Shown piece after piece: positions 528 through 57,978 of a stretch of DNA of 64,000 nucleotides. This stretch comes from a virus: positions 1-64,000 of the IMG/VR virus record IMGVR_UViG_3300043449_001732. One strand, written 5' to 3'. Both the position numbers and the translations under genes were made by a program. The notes beneath the pieces are model-generated. The model had not been told where the DNA came from. It worked only from the letters and a program-made list of their open reading frames with translations, and searched no databases. Within the stretch, counting starts at the first letter, position 1, and each line of letters starts with the position of its first letter.

Positions 528-731
528 TTAATCACCGTAATGGATTGATGGGTAAACGTAACGCTCATTGTAATGATCGCAGGCATTGCGTTCCTCTACT
601 GAGATGTCGTCAATGCCATCCCAATCAGATTGATTGGATTCACGCATGGCTTGCTCTTGTTCATAGGCAAGGTCTGCCAATGCATCAAGCAAGTCAGCGT
701 TACGTTGTTCGTCAATGAAGTTGATGTCCAT
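528..731 (-). CDS. Hypothetical acidic early protein, 67 aa
   Basis: Not recognised. The protein is strongly acidic and rich in Asp, Glu and Asn, with no membrane segment or motif I can name. Small acidic proteins of this sort are common in phage early operons, where some bind host enzymes or mimic DNA; that role is only an analogy here. It sits between the 10-525 frame and a non-coding stretch with a strong hairpin. Confidence 0.7.
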   Translation of the reverse strand: MDINFIDEQRNADLLDALADLAYEQEQAMRESNQSDWDGIDDISVEERNACDHYNERYVYPSIHYGD

Positions 732-789
732 TGGTTGAGTTGAGATGGAACGGTGAGCAGTTTAACGTCTTACTCAGGACGTGAGTAGG

Positions 790-811
790 ATCACCCCATT
801 GTGGGGTGATT
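790..811. repeat. Intergenic hairpin (possible terminator)
   Basis: Inverted repeat ATCACCCC / GGGGTGAT with a short loop, in the gap between the 528-731 and 874-1089 genes. There is no clear T-run on either side, so it could be a processing or stability hairpin rather than an intrinsic terminator. Confidence 0.5.
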
Positions 812-873
812 GATAGTACGGAGGTACTTCTTCTACTTGGAATCCTAATAACCGTTGTTTATCAAGAAAACAA

Positions 874-1089
874 CTAAGGCCTTACCTCCTTAACAGCCAT
901 TATCTGTGGCGCTGGCTGTTGCAGAGGGGGCCGGGGGGTTGTGTTAAAGATGTTGTTGCTAGACCCATGGGGGATACCAATAGTTACATCTGTCCCATCC
1001 TTACGGATGGAGATAATAACCTTGCCATCCCTGGTAATCACTGAGACGTGATCTGGGTTAGCAACATCGAATTGGTTGAGGAGTTCCAT
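874..1089 (-). CDS. Hypothetical early protein, 71 aa
   Basis: Not recognised. The N-terminal half (VSVITRDGKVIISIRKDGT) is predicted beta-rich with alternating hydrophobic residues; the C-terminal half is Pro/Asn-rich and probably disordered. It starts with ATG just after an AACTCC-rich leader and belongs to the leftward small-gene cluster. Confidence 0.65.
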   Translation of the reverse strand: MELLNQFDVANPDHVSVITRDGKVIISIRKDGTDVTIGIPHGSSNNIFNTTPRPPLQQPAPQIMAVKEVRP

Positions 1090-1184
1090 GGAGTTGTGTT
1101 AGTGCTGAGTTAGGTTACATGCTGGTTGCTAGCTATGCAACAACGCATGTGGTGTGGTGCTAAAGCGGTACGCTACCTGTGGTG

Positions 1185-1526
1185 TTACCTCAGGTACAAG
1201 TACGATCCTGCATAGTCACAGTTGTGTAAACAGGTTTCAAATGATTGATCATCCAGTAACAGGTACCTGGCATGTTTCGCTGGTGCTTGCCATGATGCAG
1301 GCTTATAGAGAGTCCCTGTTTGCCTTGCGACAAATGCATGGACCGATCTGCCTTCATTCCTGGTACCAGGGTTAGCGACATGGATGATCTTGTAGTACTT
1401 GACGCCGCGCTTAACTTCGAAAGCTATCGGGCTGTTGTACTGTTTGTAGAATTTCTCTTGGAGCGTATCGCAGAGTTCCTGGATACGATCTTCGATAAGT
1501 TTGGTGTTAGCGCTGAGTGTTGTCAT
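1185..1526 (-). CDS. Hypothetical early protein, 113 aa
   Basis: Not recognised. An upstream extension of the frame exists, but the ATG at 1526 (MTTLSANTKLIEDRIQ) gives a natural amphipathic N-terminus and follows a purine-rich leader, so I use it. The middle (YYKIIHVANPGT) looks like a compact beta-rich domain. The start overlaps the end of the 1507-1704 membrane-protein gene, suggesting coupled translation. Confidence 0.7.
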   Translation of the reverse strand: MTTLSANTKLIEDRIQELCDTLQEKFYKQYNSPIAFEVKRGVKYYKIIHVANPGTRNEGRSVHAFVARQTGTLYKPASWQAPAKHARYLLLDDQSFETCLHNCDYAGSYLYLR

Positions 1527-1704
1527 GGTGTTGGGCAGGAGTTTGGTTGGTGATATCCATGCCGACCACTGCACCTGCGGTGAGTGCGGCAATGATTAGT
1601 GACAGGGCTGCCACGCAGATCTTACTAAGGCGAGTCTCATGAGACGCATAGTAAGAATCAAGGTGGACAAAACGCCCTGGTGCCAAATGTACTATATGTT
1701 TCAT
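1507..1704 (-). CDS. Small single-pass membrane protein, 65 aa
   Basis: Not recognised by family. Residues about 28-48 (VAALSLIIAALTAGAVVG) form one clear membrane helix preceded by positively charged residues, predicting a small inner-membrane protein. ATG at 1704 is chosen because the longer frame upstream runs through a repeated hairpin element. The end overlaps the 1185-1526 gene by about 20 bases. Confidence 0.65.
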   Translation of the reverse strand: MKHIVHLAPGRFVHLDSYYASHETRLSKICVAALSLIIAALTAGAVVGMDITNQTPAQHHDNTQR

Positions 1705-1730
1705 ATGTAGTTGAGCCGAAGGTTTGATGC

Positions 1731-1775
1731 AGGATATTGAGTCCTGCAGTGAAGGCCCGTAGGCCCTCAGTGCAA
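1731..1775 (-). repeat. Intercistronic two-hairpin repeat, type 2, copy 1
   Basis: On the minus-strand RNA this holds an AGGGCC-TACG-GGCCTT stem capped by a UNCG-type tetraloop and an AGGA/TCCT stem. A near-identical copy lies at 2307-2350. The G-U pair in the stem forms only on the leftward transcript, supporting a role in the RNA of this operon. Confidence 0.65.
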
Positions 1776-1778
1776 GAG

Positions 1779-1979
1779 TCATAAGGTGCGCTTATCTAAG
1801 CAATAGTATGCGTCGCCTAAAAAGCTACGCATGTATATGAGTTGATGCCCTGGCTTTGCTGGGCATGTCTTGACGTAGTGCTTATTGAGTAGTTGCTGTG
1901 CTCCAGCAGATAGCAGCATGCCTGCTCCTGCGCCCATAACAATGGCAAGCATAGAGTTTTGAAATGTGTTGGAGTTCAT
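1779..1979 (-). CDS. Small membrane protein, 66 aa
   Basis: Not recognised. ATG at 1979 gives MNSNTFQNSMLAIVMG followed by a Gly/Ala-rich hydrophobic helix (residues ~9-26), then a basic Cys-containing tail (HYVKTCPAKPGHQ). It is probably anchored in the membrane with the tail outside the bilayer. It lies between two copies of the type-2 hairpin repeat. Confidence 0.65.
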   Translation of the reverse strand: MNSNTFQNSMLAIVMGAGAGMLLSAGAQQLLNKHYVKTCPAKPGHQLIYMRSFLGDAYYCLDKRTL

Positions 1980-2007
1980 GTCAGTAGTGTGATGATGTTG
2001 AAAGAGA

Positions 2008-2280
2008 TTACATGCACTGGAGCTTACGCTCAAGTTCCATGTCGATGGAGTAATGATAGTAGTCTTCCATCTCCATGAGCATCTCCTTCATGCTTGTTGG
2101 CACTCCACTGCCAAGCGTACGTACGTCACGGTCTAGCCACTCTTGCCATTCGGCATCGGTGTCTGGGTCGAATGTATTCCACAGCTTCTCAAAGTGAAGC
2201 TGCGTTGATTCGCCGCCATACCATGTGACACGATACTGTTGCTCGGCGGATGGTTTGTAGACAAGTGCTGGTGTTGTCAT
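2008..2280 (-). CDS. Hypothetical early protein, 90 aa
   Basis: Not recognised. The protein is acidic and Trp-rich, with a WQEWLDRDVR segment, and contains no visible catalytic motif or membrane helix. The start ATG (MTTPALVYKPSAEQQYRV) is followed by a mixed beta/alpha sequence typical of small phage proteins that bind host factors. Function is unknown. Confidence 0.75.
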   Translation of the reverse strand: MTTPALVYKPSAEQQYRVTWYGGESTQLHFEKLWNTFDPDTDAEWQEWLDRDVRTLGSGVPTSMKEMLMEMEDYYHYSIDMELERKLQCM

Positions 2281-2306
2281 GGTTGAGTTGAAATGAAGTT
2301 AATAAC

Positions 2307-2350
2307 AGGATGTTGAGTCCTGCAGAAAAGGCCCGTAGGCCCTTAGTGCA
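2307..2350 (-). repeat. Intercistronic two-hairpin repeat, type 2, copy 2
   Basis: Second copy of the 1731-1775 element. On the minus-strand RNA it forms AAGGGCC-TACG-GGCCTTT plus an AGGA/TCCT stem. It lies between the 2008-2280 and 2355-2543 genes. Confidence 0.65.
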
Positions 2351-2354
2351 GAAG

Positions 2355-2543
2355 TCAGACTTCAGTCTTAGGTGTGATAACGAATGCCATGTCGTTCGGC
2401 ATCATGAGTGCTGCCGCACGGATACGATACTCGATCAGCTTGGCACTGACAGTGGACATGTTAGGTGCCTTGGCATTCTCGATAGCTTTAGCAGAGAGCT
2501 TTAGCAGATCAGCAGTGTTCTTACGCAGGTTGAGTGCAGTCAT
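2355..2543 (-). CDS. Hypothetical helical early protein, 62 aa
   Basis: Not recognised. The sequence is almost entirely helix-forming with Ala, Leu and Lys (DLLKLSAKAIENAKAP) and no cysteines. It is flanked by the type-1 and type-2 hairpin repeats. Confidence 0.7.
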   Translation of the reverse strand: MTALNLRKNTADLLKLSAKAIENAKAPNMSTVSAKLIEYRIRAAALMMPNDMAFVITPKTEV

Positions 2544-2560
2544 GTTGAGTTGATTTGTAA

Positions 2561-2617
2561 GCCACCCTCAGTGGGTGGCAATACTGAGTGGAGGGTTCGA
2601 CCCTCCGGCATCACGCC
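2561..2617 (-). repeat. Intercistronic double-hairpin element, type 1, copy R3
   Basis: Two stems: GCCACCC/GGGTGGC (2561-2579) and GGAGGG-TTCGA-CCCTCC (2590-2606), followed by the shared GGCATCACGCC tail. It shares the second stem with copy R1 while the first stem differs in sequence but keeps pairing. Confidence 0.7.
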
Positions 2618-2623
2618 TGGTAC

Positions 2624-2815
2624 TCAGTTGGTCTTGTAGCTATTGGCTGCACACCAGGCCATGTGGACCTCGTGCGCATCCTTAGGCCAGTCGTGGCTAG
2701 CACATTGCTGTGCAGTTGCTTGATCTAGTTGGTGCAATGTCACTTGGGTGCCAATGCCAATCAAGATCGCAAAGCCACAGATGGTTGGGGCTACGGCTGG
2801 GAATTGATACTTCAT
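2624..2815 (-). CDS. Small membrane protein, 63 aa
   Basis: Not recognised. ATG at 2815 (MKYQFPAVAPTICG) is the likely start; the longer frame upstream only translates repeat R2. Residues ~8-24 form a hydrophobic helix (VAPTICGFAILIGIG), then a polar Cys/His/Trp-containing tail (CASHDWPKDAHEVHMAWC). It could be a small inner-membrane protein. Confidence 0.65.
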   Translation of the reverse strand: MKYQFPAVAPTICGFAILIGIGTQVTLHQLDQATAQQCASHDWPKDAHEVHMAWCAANSYKTN

Positions 2816-2829
2816 GGTGCTGAGTTGAT

Positions 2830-2893
2830 GTGCGGTACCCATCTCCGCTGAGGGTAATTGTTGAGTGGGGGATTCGATCCCCCGGCTCACGCC
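2830..2893 (-). repeat. Intercistronic double-hairpin element, type 1, copy R2
   Basis: Stem 1 TACCC/GGGTA (2836-2856) and stem 2 GGGGGA-TTCGA-TCCCCC (2867-2883). Compared with R1 the second stem carries paired substitutions that keep it intact. Confidence 0.75.
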
Positions 2894-2899
2894 TTGTAC

Positions 2900-2968
2900 T
2901 TAACGTTGACCTGCCTTAGCAAGTGCAGCCATAACTGCACATGCGGTCAGGAAAATAACGAATTCCAC
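2900..2968 (-). CDS. 22-aa hydrophobic microprotein
   Basis: A very short frame, GTG start at 2968, encoding MEFVIFLTACAVMAALAKAG plus two residues. An AGGAG ribosome binding site lies six bases before the GTG. The peptide is one membrane helix with a basic end. It sits exactly between two copies of the double-hairpin element, as the other cistrons do, which supports it as a real gene. Function unknown. Confidence 0.5.
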   Translation of the reverse strand: MEFVIFLTACAVMAALAKAGQR

Positions 2969-2982
2969 AGGAATCTCCTGTT

Positions 2983-3047
2983 GTGCGGTACCCATCTCCG
3001 CTGAGGGTAATAGTTGAGTGGAGGGTTCGACCCTCCGGCATCACGCC
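2983..3047 (-). repeat. Intercistronic double-hairpin element, type 1, copy R1
   Basis: Stem 1 TACCC/GGGTA (2989-3009) and stem 2 GGAGGG-TTCGA-CCCTCC (3020-3036), ending in GGCATCACGCC. Nearly identical to R2 over 64 bases apart from compensatory changes. Confidence 0.75.
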
Positions 3048-3050
3048 TAG

Positions 3051-3242
3051 TCAGATGACCATCTCAACGTCGGACTCCATCATCTCAGCGAATGTGAGAA
3101 GTTGGATGTTGTTAGTTCCCTGGACACCATCGTTCAACTCTGGTGAGTTGTGGATGTAATCCAGTTGTGCGGCGTTCTCTAGCGCTTCTTCCTTGCAGAA
3201 GTAAACGCTGTGTTGTACGCCGTTGAGGATTACGTAGAACAC
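3051..3242 (-). CDS. Hypothetical early protein, 63 aa
   Basis: Not recognised. I place the start at GTG 3242, which follows a GGAG site at eight bases; the open frame upstream passes through repeat R4 and the neighbouring gene. The protein begins beta-rich (MFYVILNGVQHSVYF) and ends acidic (TFAEMMESDVEMVI). Confidence 0.6.
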   Translation of the reverse strand: MFYVILNGVQHSVYFCKEEALENAAQLDYIHNSPELNDGVQGTNNIQLLTFAEMMESDVEMVI

Positions 3243-3258
3243 GTAAGTGTCTCCGTAG

Positions 3259-3318
3259 TGTGGTGCCCATCTCCACAGGGGGCAAGTGCTGGACCAGGGT
3301 TTGCACCTGGTCACCCGC
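3259..3318 (-). repeat. Intercistronic double-hairpin element, type 1, copy R4
   Basis: Divergent copy: stem 1 TGCCC/GGGCA (3264-3284), stem 2 GACCAGG/CCTGGTC (3292-3312). Same architecture and CATCTCC loop as R1 and R2, but both stems differ by paired changes. Confidence 0.65.
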
Positions 3319-3327
3319 TTTAACGGA

Positions 3328-3555
3328 TCAGCATCCAAGCATCTCGTCCACGTAGGACTTGATGACCTGGAGGTGGTCTCGGTTAAGTGTCTGGCTACGG
3401 CCATACTCAAGCAGGTCAAGGACCTGGAGCATGACGTTATCGCCAGCCTCTTCACGAGACGGTACGCCACACATGTCGAAGATCTCATCACGTGACATCT
3501 CAGTGATGTCGACGCAATCGATCTGACGAACGGTGGCGATGGTGGTGATGGTCAC
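3328..3555 (-). CDS. Hypothetical early protein, 75 aa
   Basis: Not recognised. GTG at 3555 follows a GGAG site and gives MTITTIATVRQIDCVDITE; a longer TTG-started frame to 3609 is less likely. The C-terminal part (VMLQVLDLLEYGRSQTLNRD) is helical. No catalytic motif is visible. Confidence 0.65.
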   Translation of the reverse strand: MTITTIATVRQIDCVDITEMSRDEIFDMCGVPSREEAGDNVMLQVLDLLEYGRSQTLNRDHLQVIKSYVDEMLGC

Positions 3556-3644
3556 GGTGTTACTCCGTAGGGTGAGCTTGGTCTTACACTGCTGGAGTGC
3601 AGCTGCCAAGGTCGTGACCGACCGCCGATATGTCTGCTGCGTTT

Positions 3645-3851: not shown

Positions 3852-4121
3852 TCAACCAATGCAGGTTGCTTCGATAACTAATGCGTGATCAAATGGTCGG
3901 CGTGTAATCCACACCTTCCATATCACGTCGTTATCCATGTACCGATCGCATTCCTCAAGTTCCTCAAGAAGGAACTTAATCACTCTGCTCGCTGTCCAGC
4001 CACTGGCTCGTAATACACCTGGCTTCATGACAACCTTCTTGCTTGCTCGCAGCGCAAATGCTGCATCGCAAAGCCTGAACGTCATGTCGCGATCGTTGAT
4101 TGTCGTAATAACCGTTGACAT
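3852..4121 (-). CDS. Hypothetical early protein, 89 aa
   Basis: Not recognised. Mixed alpha/beta sequence with a central helix (RVIKFLLEELEECDRYM) and basic N-terminal half. It is the first gene of the leftward operon after the 4122-4395 control region, so it may be the first expressed. Confidence 0.7.
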   Translation of the reverse strand: MSTVITTINDRDMTFRLCDAAFALRASKKVVMKPGVLRASGWTASRVIKFLLEELEECDRYMDNDVIWKVWITRRPFDHALVIEATCIG

Positions 4122-4219
4122 TGAACTAACTTGCGGTGGTATCCTGCGTTCTACGGATGCGCAGCCCCCGGTAAACTTATCTACCTACCACCCATTCTTT
4201 TTTTTCTTCCCACATTTCA

Positions 4220-4310: not shown

Positions 4311-4352
4311 GTACGTAAAATACCCGTTTACCCCAAATTTTTACACAAAAAA

Positions 4353-4373
4353 GCCGGGGTGTTTAGCCCCGGT
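4353..4373 (-). terminator. Intrinsic terminator after the 4396-4608 gene
   Basis: CCGGGG/CCCCGG hairpin followed on the minus strand by six T residues (GGCTTTTTTG). It lies just downstream of the leftward 70-aa gene. Confidence 0.8.
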
Positions 4374-4395
4374 AATTTCAAAGTCTCAAAAATTT

Positions 4396-4711: not shown

Positions 4712-7639
4712 ATGGCACTTTCCCCAGCTGATTTTTACGCATACAGCCGTGCCACTGGAGCTCCAGTCCCAGAAGATCCCAGGGAACGGGCCGAAATGGC
4801 CCCTGAAGTACTTGAATTCCGCCGTAATCAGCTCAGAGCCCCCCAACAGGAAGAAGAAGGTGGGTTCAACCTCACCAATTTGCTAGGTATTGGTGCCGCC
4901 GCAGCCGGTCTCGCCGGTGGTACGTTCGGCCTTGTCCGTGCTTTACGTAAAGCGCCCGCAAAAACAGCTGTAGCTCCCTCACCCAAAGAATATGGAGGCC
5001 CTGCGCAGCGTTTGGTGCGTGATTTAGGGCGTGCCGAAGATGTGCCTGCGCCGTCCAAGCCTCCTGCATCTCAAACACAAACGCAAGCACCTGCTGCCCC
5101 TCAGTTCACGCCCCGTTCCTTCCTGGAAAGCAAAGGCGCTGTCTTGCCAGCTGAAGACTTGACTTCTGTGCAAGTTGAGCAGCGCCCTTCGGTTGTTAAA
5201 CAACAGGTTGAGGCAACAGATCCAGGCCTGGATCAAGTTGTTAATAGAGGCGTTGTCATTCCAGAGCAACGTGATGTTAACGCTAATGATTTTGCTAGTT
5301 TTAGTCGCGATGCAGATCGCGTCGAAAGAATCAATGCCGTTGTCAACCAAGTTAAAAACTTTCCTCAAGAAACGGCACGTGCAGCAGACACAGGTAACGT
5401 ATGGGAACTGGAAGAACATCTTGAGGAAATGGGCCGTCAAGCTCAGCAGTACTACGGTGCTCGTTACGAAAGGGGCGGGCGGAGTGTTTCAGATTTAACC
5501 GGTGAGCTGGAACTGTCCCCACAACAAGCCCGTGCAATGCGTGGCGCCAAAATTGGCACTGTATCGACCAAGGCAGGTTTAAGTGCAGGCCGCGCCTTAG
5601 ATCTGAGCACGGTCTCTGATTCTGCTACGTCTCGTGGTCGTTTTACTCCTCAAGAAGTTCTTGAGCGTACGATGGCGGCTGCGTCTTATCCACGGGAGAT
5701 CCGTGATCAGATCCTGAATCCTGCTGTACCCCGCGAGCAGATCCGTGAGTTCCTTGGGACTACACCTAAGATTCGTGGCGGCGCTGTTAGCAGCAACCCG
5801 ACGATGGAGATTGCTGGTGGTGCACGTGCTTCTATGACGGAAGCCCCCATGGAAGAACTACAAACCGCCGGTGTTGGTGGAAGAGGGCTGACTTATGCAG
5901 AAACGGCTGATCTCAAGCAACTAGGTCAAAAAGAAAAACTTGAACAAGCTGGTTTTACTTATGACCCCAACACTGGTAATTACTATCAAGAAATCGATGA
6001 TTATGATATTGACCCAACCGAGGTAATGACTGCCAATCGTGAGATGGGCACTGATTATGGCGACACAGAAGGTGTTGGAAATCTGTTAATTGAAACTGAA
6101 TCCTTCCGTGAGCGCACCAACAAAGGAACAACGCAGATTCCAGGTGTAATTCAACAGGCAACGGGTGCTGTTCCTGGATCTGAGCGCCAGTTACGTTCGG
6201 CTGACGTTGTGGTACCCCTGCGCCGCACTGCAGAAGGAATTCAGACCACAGGCCTTAATGTTGTTTCTACCGACCCCACCAAATCTTTTGGCCAACTTTT
6301 GCGCATGCAAGATGTCGGCTACAAAGGTGGCATGGGTATCGAAACAGCTGATATCAATGTCGGCACCAATAAATTGATTGGTGGTTTTGAAACTGCCGTA
6401 GATGTTGTACCCGACAAAATTACAACTCAACCCGTTGCCAATTGGTCGCCATCCGTGATATATGGCGAGACCATCCGTGGAACTAATATCCGTCGTCCTT
6501 ATAAGCCAACGACAGCACGTATTATCACTGGAGAAGCGCCATTGATCGGTATCAGGCGTACCCCCCTGGCGCAAAATGAGCAACAAGTTGGTTGGACTAC
6601 GTTAAAAACTTCACAACCAGAGCCTGTATCTTTGGATCGTGCCACGATTCAAAATGTTGCAGCACAAGCACAATCAGATTATTTCAATAACCCAAGCGCC
6701 AAGGCTGCTTACTTGCGCGAAAAAAATCCTGATGCATTAAAAGCTGGTCTGGCACAAGGCAAAACCTTGGCTGACATTGGTGAATCTTATGACTATCAAG
6801 GTTTCATTATTAAAGCTGTTGATGATTATCTGATGAATCAAGAAGGGATCGATCTTCCCCTTCTCAAGCCGCAAGTCAGTCAAACCACTGGTAATTCTTA
6901 TTACCCGACAGAGGCTAATGCTTTTGTAATGGGCTTGCTCAAAACAGAGAAAGACACTCCCATTTACGGCGAGCCCATCAAGTTGTCACCCGAAGGTAAA
7001 AAAGTTGTAAAAGGTTTCAATAAAGGTGGTTATCCGATTTACGAAACGGAAGGCACTTCTGGCCCTATCCCTGGACGCTATCAAGTCCGTGGCGAAGGTG
7101 GTATCGATCCAATGACAATTAGCGATGACTATGACGGTGAAAACGTTGCATACTACGCGCCTCGTATTGATACAGCCTCTCAGCGTAAAGTTATGCAAGA
7201 AGGCATGCGCAGTGGTGTTGCACCAGAGGCAATGCTTGGTATGAGTAGTACCCCTACGGGTGCTCAGATGTCTGCTTTACGTTCTCAAATGTCTACACCC
7301 CAAGCTGGCGTAGGCATGCGTGCCGTTCCTGTTCGCAATCCGTTGACAGGACAAAAGGTAGGCACTGAGAGGGTGTCAACGATGAACATCGGTTCTTTTG
7401 CTCGTACACAAAATCCTTACACTGGTCCAGCTGCACCTGCAATGGGTCCTGTAAGTCGTGTGCTATCTGGTAACTACCAGTATTCTCCAGAGCAGTTAGA
7501 GGTAAACCTACCTTCTACCAAGCCTCCGGTCAATGTAGAAACGGTAGAATACTACGAACCAAAGGCATCTAATCTTGGAGCAGTAATGCAACAATTACAA
7601 GCTCAAGCAGGACGCCGTCGCGGAAGCCGTAAAAACTAA
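4712..7639 (+). CDS. Large hypothetical virion-associated protein, 975 aa
   Basis: First gene of the rightward late block; not assigned to a family. After an acidic, Pro-rich N-terminus, residues ~53-75 form a Gly/Ala-rich hydrophobic stretch (LLGIGAAAAGLAGG) that could be a membrane or glycine-zipper segment. Then come Pro/Gln/Thr-rich linkers and long regions of polar, probably extended structure, ending in a very basic tail (AGRRRGSRKN). Size, composition and position next to other Ala/Gly-rich genes suggest an internal or ejected virion protein. That role is inference. Confidence 0.7.
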   Translation: MALSPADFYAYSRATGAPVPEDPRERAEMAPEVLEFRRNQLRAPQQEEEGGFNLTNLLGIGAAAAGLAGGTFGLVRALRKAPAKTAVAPSPKEYGGPAQRLVRDLGRAEDVPAPSKPPASQTQTQAPAAPQFTPRSFLESKGAVLPAEDLTSVQVEQRPSVVKQQVEATDPGLDQVVNRGVVIPEQRDVNANDFASFSRDADRVERINAVVNQVKNFPQETARAADTGNVWELEEHLEEMGRQAQQYYGARYERGGRSVSDLTGELELSPQQARAMRGAKIGTVSTKAGLSAGRALDLSTVSDSATSRGRFTPQEVLERTMAAASYPREIRDQILNPAVPREQIREFLGTTPKIRGGAVSSNPTMEIAGGARASMTEAPMEELQTAGVGGRGLTYAETADLKQLGQKEKLEQAGFTYDPNTGNYYQEIDDYDIDPTEVMTANREMGTDYGDTEGVGNLLIETESFRERTNKGTTQIPGVIQQATGAVPGSERQLRSADVVVPLRRTAEGIQTTGLNVVSTDPTKSFGQLLRMQDVGYKGGMGIETADINVGTNKLIGGFETAVDVVPDKITTQPVANWSPSVIYGETIRGTNIRRPYKPTTARIITGEAPLIGIRRTPLAQNEQQVGWTTLKTSQPEPVSLDRATIQNVAAQAQSDYFNNPSAKAAYLREKNPDALKAGLAQGKTLADIGESYDYQGFIIKAVDDYLMNQEGIDLPLLKPQVSQTTGNSYYPTEANAFVMGLLKTEKDTPIYGEPIKLSPEGKKVVKGFNKGGYPIYETEGTSGPIPGRYQVRGEGGIDPMTISDDYDGENVAYYAPRIDTASQRKVMQEGMRSGVAPEAMLGMSSTPTGAQMSALRSQMSTPQAGVGMRAVPVRNPLTGQKVGTERVSTMNIGSFARTQNPYTGPAAPAMGPVSRVLSGNYQYSPEQLEVNLPSTKPPVNVETVEYYEPKASNLGAVMQQLQAQAGRRRGSRKN

Positions 7640-57890: not shown

Positions 57891-57962
57891 TCAACCGGTA
57901 GTCCAGTGGCAGGACACCCCGACAAGGGAGTTAGATAGCTGGTTCGATTCCAGCACGGTTGA
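57891..57962 (+). tRNA. tRNA-like element 1 without a normal anticodon arm
   Basis: Seven-base acceptor TCAACCG/CGGTTGA, D-arm GTCC-AGTGGCA-GGAC with the conserved GG, and T-arm GCTGG-TTCGATT-CCAGC. The anticodon region (CCCCGACAAGGGAG) has only a CCC/GGG stem and lacks the universal U33, so no anticodon can be assigned. It may be a tRNA-like 3' domain of the upstream RNA or a decayed tRNA. Confidence 0.5.
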
Positions 57963-57978
57963 TTTTCAGTTAAATTTA

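Follow-up and report, generated by a model that had tools for sequence, protein, structure and literature searches.

The 64-kb window analysed here, which is the first part of an 83,981-base IMG/VR virus record, carries four copies of a structured RNA element between consecutive small genes on its minus strand. Each copy joins two modules that belong to different genes: the 3' module, which is a minimal tRNA mimic by its T-loop and its 12-bp geometry, closes the upstream gene, and the 5' module, a putative pseudoknot or a plain hairpin, precedes the downstream gene. The RNA family is absent from Rfam and was recovered from more than 100 loci of a phage group in which S-EIV1 is the one annotated isolate recovered. 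There is, in our judgement, an even chance that the host RNase Z cuts at the boundary between A73 and UU, which would leave a blocked 3' end on one mRNA and a structured 5' end on the next. Moreover, tRNA-style punctuation as known from mitochondria might exist in a bacterial virus that relies on a host tRNA-trimming enzyme and places a stop codon within the tRNA-like helix. The full form of this reading, in which a DNA phage lineage would possess its own tRNA punctuation consisting of stop-codon-bearing minimal tRNAs, the host tRNA 3' enzyme and swappable pre-capped single mRNAs, is tenable but falls marginally short of an even chance. If true, it would explain how phages swap small genes yet keep their expression signals.

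The source phage is S-EIV1-like and probably a cyanophage, i.e. a virus of freshwater cyanobacteria. At the element locus, the nearest annotated relative is Synechococcus phage S-EIV1 (KJ410740). Its layout matches that of the window, with small minus-strand genes adjoining a plus-strand run of larger genes. The small proteins flanking the elements gave no match in PHROGs and no function was obtained for them. Covariance searches placed the four elements of about 77 nt on the minus strand between positions 2555-3335, each between consecutive minus-strand ORFs, with E-values of 4e-19 for the type-B copy and of 2e-13 to 2e-17 for the type-A copies (Table 1). Two consensus scans yielded three matches each, compared with 0.23 and 0.14 expected. 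Because the elements lie between consecutive minus-strand genes, the RNA sense is that of the minus strand; read in this sense, each element consists of the 3' module of the upstream gene, a short A-U-U linker and the 5' module of the downstream gene. A preliminary description of the region had reported four copies of a double hairpin of about 60 nt between early small genes. Number and position were borne out and all the stems that it named are present in the sequence, but the core measures about 77 nt, nothing was found in favour of the designation "early", and the stems are part of a different architecture, namely a tRNA-like junction followed by a pseudoknot or a hairpin, in which each module belongs to a different gene. 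Missing from that description were the outer helix P1, the mini-hairpin P3, the helix that crosses "stem 1" in the pseudoknot and the location of the stop codon within P1.

Table 1 Coordinates of the intercistronic elements and of the leader hairpin in the window
Feature	Position	Strand	Details
Covariance matches	2555-2631, 2830-2907, 2983-3058, 3258-3335	(-)	
Element 4	3258..3335	(-)	Type-B 3' module of gene 3328-3609(-) and pseudoknot 5' module; R1 match 95.7 bits, E=4e-19
Element 4, tRNA-like 3' module	3287..3333	(-)	P1 UGCUG/CAGCA, P3 AUCCGUUAAAGCGGGU
Element 4, stop codon UGA of upstream gene	3328-3330	(-)	Within P1
Element 4, T-arm	3292-3312	(-)	T-loop UGCAAAC; C then UU after the 3' module
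Element 4, pseudoknot 5' module	3260..3284	(-)	UGCCC/GGGCA crossing GUGG/CCAC
Element 4, next gene downstream of pseudoknot	start about 3239	(-)	
Element 3	2983..3068	(-)	Type-A 3' module of gene 3051-3239(-) and pseudoknot; R2 match 73 bits
Element 3, P1 5' strand	3063-3068	(-)	GUUGAG, inside coding sequence
Element 3, T-arm	3020..3036	(-)	GGAGGGUCGAACCCUCC
Element 3, pseudoknot	2985..3009	(-)	UACCC/GGGUA crossing GCGG/CCGC
Element 2	2830..2907	(-)	Type-A 3' module and pseudoknot at 2832-2856; R2 match 88.6 bits
Element 2, stop codon UAA	2900-2902	(-)	
Element 2, T-arm	2867..2883	(-)	GGGGGAUCGAAUCCCCC
Element 1	2555..2631	(-)	Type-A 3' module of gene 2624-2815(-) and plain-hairpin 5' module; R2 match 70 bits and fold
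Element 1, T-arm	2590-2606	(-)	Surrounded by P1 ACUCAG/CUGAGU
Element 1, plain hairpin	2561-2579	(-)	GCCACCC..GGGUGGC, upstream of gene 2355-2543(-)
Leader hairpin GGGGGCUGCGCAUCC..CGCAG	4144..4169	(-)	Upstream of the first gene (3852-4121) of the element-bearing run; 75 unique copies in 70 loci

The copies in the window differ in detail. Element 1 has a plain hairpin where the others have a pseudoknot, P1 of element 2 contains a single A.C mismatch (GUUAAG/CUCAAC), and the minimum-energy fold of element 3 is a four-way cloverleaf.

Three pattern scans of IMG/VR retrieved more than 160 loci, a few of the pattern-only matches being due to chance; since the relatives were sampled by sequence patterns, the bases within those patterns are not evidence of conservation. 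With one covariance model, a batch of 90 loci yielded 193 matches with E<=0.001. Among 28 phage records that were searched whole, 26 contained one to five matches each, on one strand and within a single stretch of at most about 2 kb. A scan of bacterial genomes returned six scattered matches, none of which was confirmed by the covariance model, and among annotated phages the element was found in S-EIV1 only. In Rfam 15, no family scored above its gathering score and there was no credible lower match; known Rfam riboswitches, ribozymes and phage RNAs were thus rejected as candidates.

The preliminary description had taken the compensatory changes among the four copies as a sign of selection for RNA pairing, a view that recovery of only identical copies from relatives would have contradicted. 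The covariance search of phages instead returned matches from many relatives that differ by compensatory change, and the view is well supported by their covariation and by the G.U pairs on the coding strand. Across about 240 instances, drawn from 124 loci, compensatory changes are dense in all helices but the near-invariant P3, for or against which covariation therefore says nothing; they were found in P1, in the T-arm and in both pseudoknot stems. In an alignment of 33 type-B sequences with pseudoknot, 97.1% of the cells are paired and 15 pairs show double changes, and the covariation score was 0.44 compared with 0.16 in shuffled controls (0/500), which do not remove shared ancestry. When the structure was slid along this alignment, just 35-43% of the cells were paired. 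The 15 type-A sequences gave 97.7% paired cells and 14 pairs with double changes. On the coding strand, departures from the commonest pair are more often G.U (22) than A.C (8), and two P1 positions hold 46 and 30 G.U pairs against very few A.C. The selected strand is thus the transcript of the genes.

The 3' module is built around the end of the upstream gene, whose stop codon lies in or beside the outer helix. Of 183 type-B copies, 153 have it at one or the other of two neighbouring P1 positions, and of 60 type-A copies, 44 have it at one of two fixed positions, where about 1-1.5% per position would be expected. As a result, non-coding sequence is paired in P1 with the last codon and the stop codon, and the pairs that make this connection covary. 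Among 297 upstream stretches selected on the downstream module only, 289 contain the hairpin, and 287 of those 289 hairpin loops have the T-loop form UNNRA. The T-arm is stacked on P1, and the stack is 12 bp long in each of the sequence types A, B and C, which is the length of acceptor plus T-stem in tRNA: position 12 is paired in 75%, 86% and 100% of the copies, respectively, and position 13 in 34%, 16% and 10%, the type-A figures being lower partly because some copies (e.g. element 3) have a longer linker and an extra hairpin. The constant length of type B alone is weak evidence because type B is one homologous family; the agreement of the three types is stronger. When P3 and the T-loop were the only criteria for choosing type-B copies, base 73 was an A in 156 of 182 (86%), and UU came next, in place of the CC of a CCA end, in 178 of 182 (98%). 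In type A, UU stands 2 nt after the 12-bp stack instead of 1 nt. The GG of the D-loop is absent from most copies, a type-C family with a GGUG linker being the exception; the small hairpin P3 stands where the D and anticodon arms would be, and the consensus has no anticodon arm.

Genuine tRNAs or their remnants were rejected because neither ARAGORN, which called no tRNA in the element region, nor the Rfam tRNA model RF00005 calls the elements. The second-best match of RF00005 in the 84-kb phage is element 2 at 2867-2884, aligned to the T-arm positions 46-63 of the model with 10.5 bits, which is not significant. An intrinsic terminator was rejected as well, because the 3' module is followed by only UU and then by structured sequence, with no U run. 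Reading the loop UGCAAAC as a GNRA tetraloop with a bulge was dropped because the variants UGCAAUC and UGCAACU cannot form it. In tRNA-Leu genes on relatives, the T-loop UGCAAGU is combined with an encoded CCA. This phage group thus uses UGCAA in genuine T-loops, and what sets the cassettes apart from the tRNAs is UU instead of CC. The elements could also be passive REP-like stability elements that block exonucleases or stop ribosomes or polymerase, with no dedicated cut and the T-loop as merely a stable loop. The location between stop and start and the many alternative hairpins at the same place fit this explanation, which we nevertheless judge unlikely, as a generic barrier needs neither UNNRA loops at a fixed distance nor a 12-bp stack common to three types, and it has no use for A73 and UU.

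Some further tRNA-related sequences were observed. Genes for tRNA-Leu with an encoded CCA are common in these phages (G000 79601-79673 (-), L058, L084 and others); the unusual T-loop UGCAAGU, whose UGCAA is shared with the type-B cassettes, is found in those of two relatives. At 5758-5833 (-), locus L010 has a longer tRNA-like stretch in place of the 3' module; it includes a true UUCGAUU T-arm, and a hairpin takes the position of the anticodon arm. In the window, ARAGORN called a tRNA at 57891-57963 (+), of unknown type and with two bases in its anticodon, to which the Rfam tRNA model gives no support.

For the 5' module, 187 unique copies were chosen by the linker and AGAU only, disregarding the second stem. 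At least three of the four stem-a pairs can form in 186 of the 187, with one clear failure, and the stem occurs as GCGG/CCGC, GUGG/CCAC, GCAG/CUGC, CAGG/CCUG, GAGG/CCUC, AGGG/CCCU, CCGG/CCGG, GCCG/CGGC and GGGG/CCCC. Stem b varies as UGCCC/GGGCA, UGCCU/AGGCA, UACCC/GGGUA and UACCU/AGGUA. The two helices are both kept by compensatory change, as in an H-type pseudoknot; since they cross, they form either a pseudoknot or two alternating hairpins. The fixed length of loop 1 (3 nt in 175/187) favours the pseudoknot, which we infer to be the structure adopted. Alternating hairpins may form instead, as a loop 1 of 3 nt with no nucleotide between the 3' strands is tight. The fluoride riboswitch also contains a pseudoknot with GAUGG in a hairpin loop and a paired strand that abuts its own 3' stem strand. 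The layout of the GAUGG loop is alike, but in the 5' module the pairing partner lies upstream instead of downstream, and there is no Rfam match.

The start codon mostly lies 16-18 nt downstream of the pseudoknot. Half of the pseudoknot leaders contain an SD, plain-hairpin leaders almost never (2/94), and in 22 of the 41 SD-bearing pseudoknot leaders the SD pairs with the start region, compared with 2.6 expected. This pairing would suit a control of downstream translation, either by small riboswitches or by operators to which an RNA-binding protein of phage or host attaches; AGAU and GGYACC of the pseudoknot would then be what is recognised. The conserved AGAU and loop 1 length point the same way, but AGAU was part of the selection. 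Moreover, plain hairpins replace the pseudoknot in nearly half of the cassettes, within the same gene families, many leaders lack an SD and the 3' module would be left unexplained, all of which makes such control improbable. The 5' module stands alone on some first genes of runs (L005, L047). A 67%-GC phage contig (L092, near 630-2160 (+)) carries four copies of the elements' pseudoknot, but there its partner is another hairpin, GACCCGAG..CUCGGGUC, which overlaps the UGA stop.

The ownership of the modules was analysed with 226 instances that link 165 distinct gene-family pairs, after removing the cassette sequence before clustering the genes and counting distinct combinations only. The upstream gene predicts the 3' type (z=15.1) whereas the downstream gene does not (z=1.4), the 5' type tracks the downstream gene (z=13.8) and weakly the upstream gene (z=3.5), and the two types are mutually independent (z=-0.1). 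This places the border between the modules at the linker, the site of the proposed cut by RNase Z. The number of gene-family pairs and the travelling of modules with genes might also be taken to mean that the elements are recombination cassettes, i.e. conserved DNA at junctions through which small genes are shuffled, as has been proposed for T4-type regulatory cassettes, with RNA structure being secondary. However, compensatory change and coding-strand G.U pairs need a function at the RNA level, and recombination would favour identity over covariation. As the only function it is strongly disfavoured and, in our view, very improbable; a role in shuffling may rather be a consequence of the elements.

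We propose that the element would act as a punctuation mark in the polycistronic phage mRNA, at which two RNA modules meet at one point. The acceptor-like P1, holding the upstream stop codon, would stack with the T-stem to 12 bp, followed by the A73-like base and UU, and the host RNase Z would cleave just after the discriminator, ahead of UU. The message of the upstream gene would then finish with a tRNA-like helix whose 1-nt overhang gives 3' exonucleases little to grip. On the other side of the cut, the downstream mRNA would begin 1-2 nt before the pseudoknot or hairpin, its new 5'-phosphate would be shielded from RNase E and RNase J, and its start codon, about 17 nt beyond the 5' module, would stay accessible to the 30S subunit. 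With the mRNA cut at the linker, each gene would thus be a self-contained, shuffleable unit with a structured 5' end, an ORF and a tRNA-like 3' end. The preliminary description had listed RNase processing sites, stability elements and regulators of individual cistrons, which pointed in the right direction and left the choice among them open.

The substrates of RNase Z are tRNA precursors that lack CCA; the enzyme holds them by a clamp on the elbow, uses distance and cuts after the discriminator (PMC4810234, PMC4919913, PMC10100781). A U within 2 nt downstream of the discriminator stimulates the enzyme about 200-fold (PMC4810234, PMC10100781), and RNase Z occurs in cyanobacteria (PMC10989914). 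By sequence and geometry, the elements resemble such substrates in their CCA-less end, in the U within 2 nt of the discriminator and in the tRNA-like distance from elbow to end, which suggests cutting by RNase Z. Against this enzyme, the canonical D-loop is absent from most copies, and RNase Z often prefers a processed 5' end, whereas here the 5' side is the whole mRNA. A ribosome translating to the stop codon would melt P1, and cutting would therefore need ribosome-free ends. A cut by RNase P at the 5' side of P1 was ranked low, because the gene would lose its stop codon and CC is absent after base 73. The main rival cutter is RNase E, which could act on the A-U-U linker between the stable structures, the tRNA-like part being an exonuclease block only. 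The linker is AU-rich and conserved across all module combinations, and RNase E sites in Synechocystis favour U at +2 (PMC10989914), as a cut before A73 would give. However, merely 2-3 unpaired nucleotides are on offer, mapped sites are enriched in A at -3/-4 whereas type B mostly has GUU before the cut, and RNase E leaves the T-loop, the 12-bp length and the A73 preference unexplained; we thus consider it rather unlikely.

The proposed RNase Z-dependent punctuation resembles that of mitochondria, where tRNA-type structures between genes mark the cuts by RNase P and RNase Z that free single mRNAs. However, mitochondria use real tRNAs, whereas the phage elements are minimal non-tRNA mimics with a stop codon in the acceptor helix and a presumptive cut, are found in a DNA phage and have an additional structured 5' module. 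Other tRNA mimics, among them the tRNA-like structures of RNA viruses, also imitate T-arm and acceptor and are read by tRNA enzymes of the host, as the phage elements would be. In plant RNA viruses such structures stand at genome 3' ends, whereas the phage elements are internal, repeated and intercistronic. In the hyperplastic regions of T4-type phages, regulatory cassettes with promoters or stem-loops lie between shuffled small genes. The likeness is in the position of the signals; T4-type cassettes differ in containing promoters, and no covarying tRNA-like module is known in them. The SAS/ESAS signals of cluster K mycobacteriophages are likewise repeated intergenic inverted-repeat signals upstream of many unrelated small-gene starts, but SAS is a 13-bp motif, GGGATAGGAGCCC, with an SD, for which neither a tRNA-like 3' module nor a pseudoknot is described (PMC3203893). 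This 13-bp motif was not seen at the start codon in the element sequences read, and no precedent for the element was found in the open-licence literature.

Other structures were observed in the region. The leader hairpin GGGGGCUGCGCAUCC..CGCAG is highly conserved about 20-45 nt before start codons, often after a AGAAAAAAAGAAAGG-like tract, and probably marks a shared transcript 5' end. At 4345-4379 of the window, a hairpin AAAAAAGCCGGGG..CCCCGG between the divergent gene runs looks like a terminator; a similar one is found in S-EIV1 (L001, about 4955-4981). Another intergenic structure follows UGA stops at 1730-1781 and 2306-2357 (-) and in L006, L038, L042, L055, L073, L082, L124, L137, L142 and L153. 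It consists of UGAGGGCC-[UUCG/UACG]-GGCCUUC within CYUGCA/UGCAGG, followed by CAGGA..UCCUG, and its copies show compensatory A-U/G-C change.
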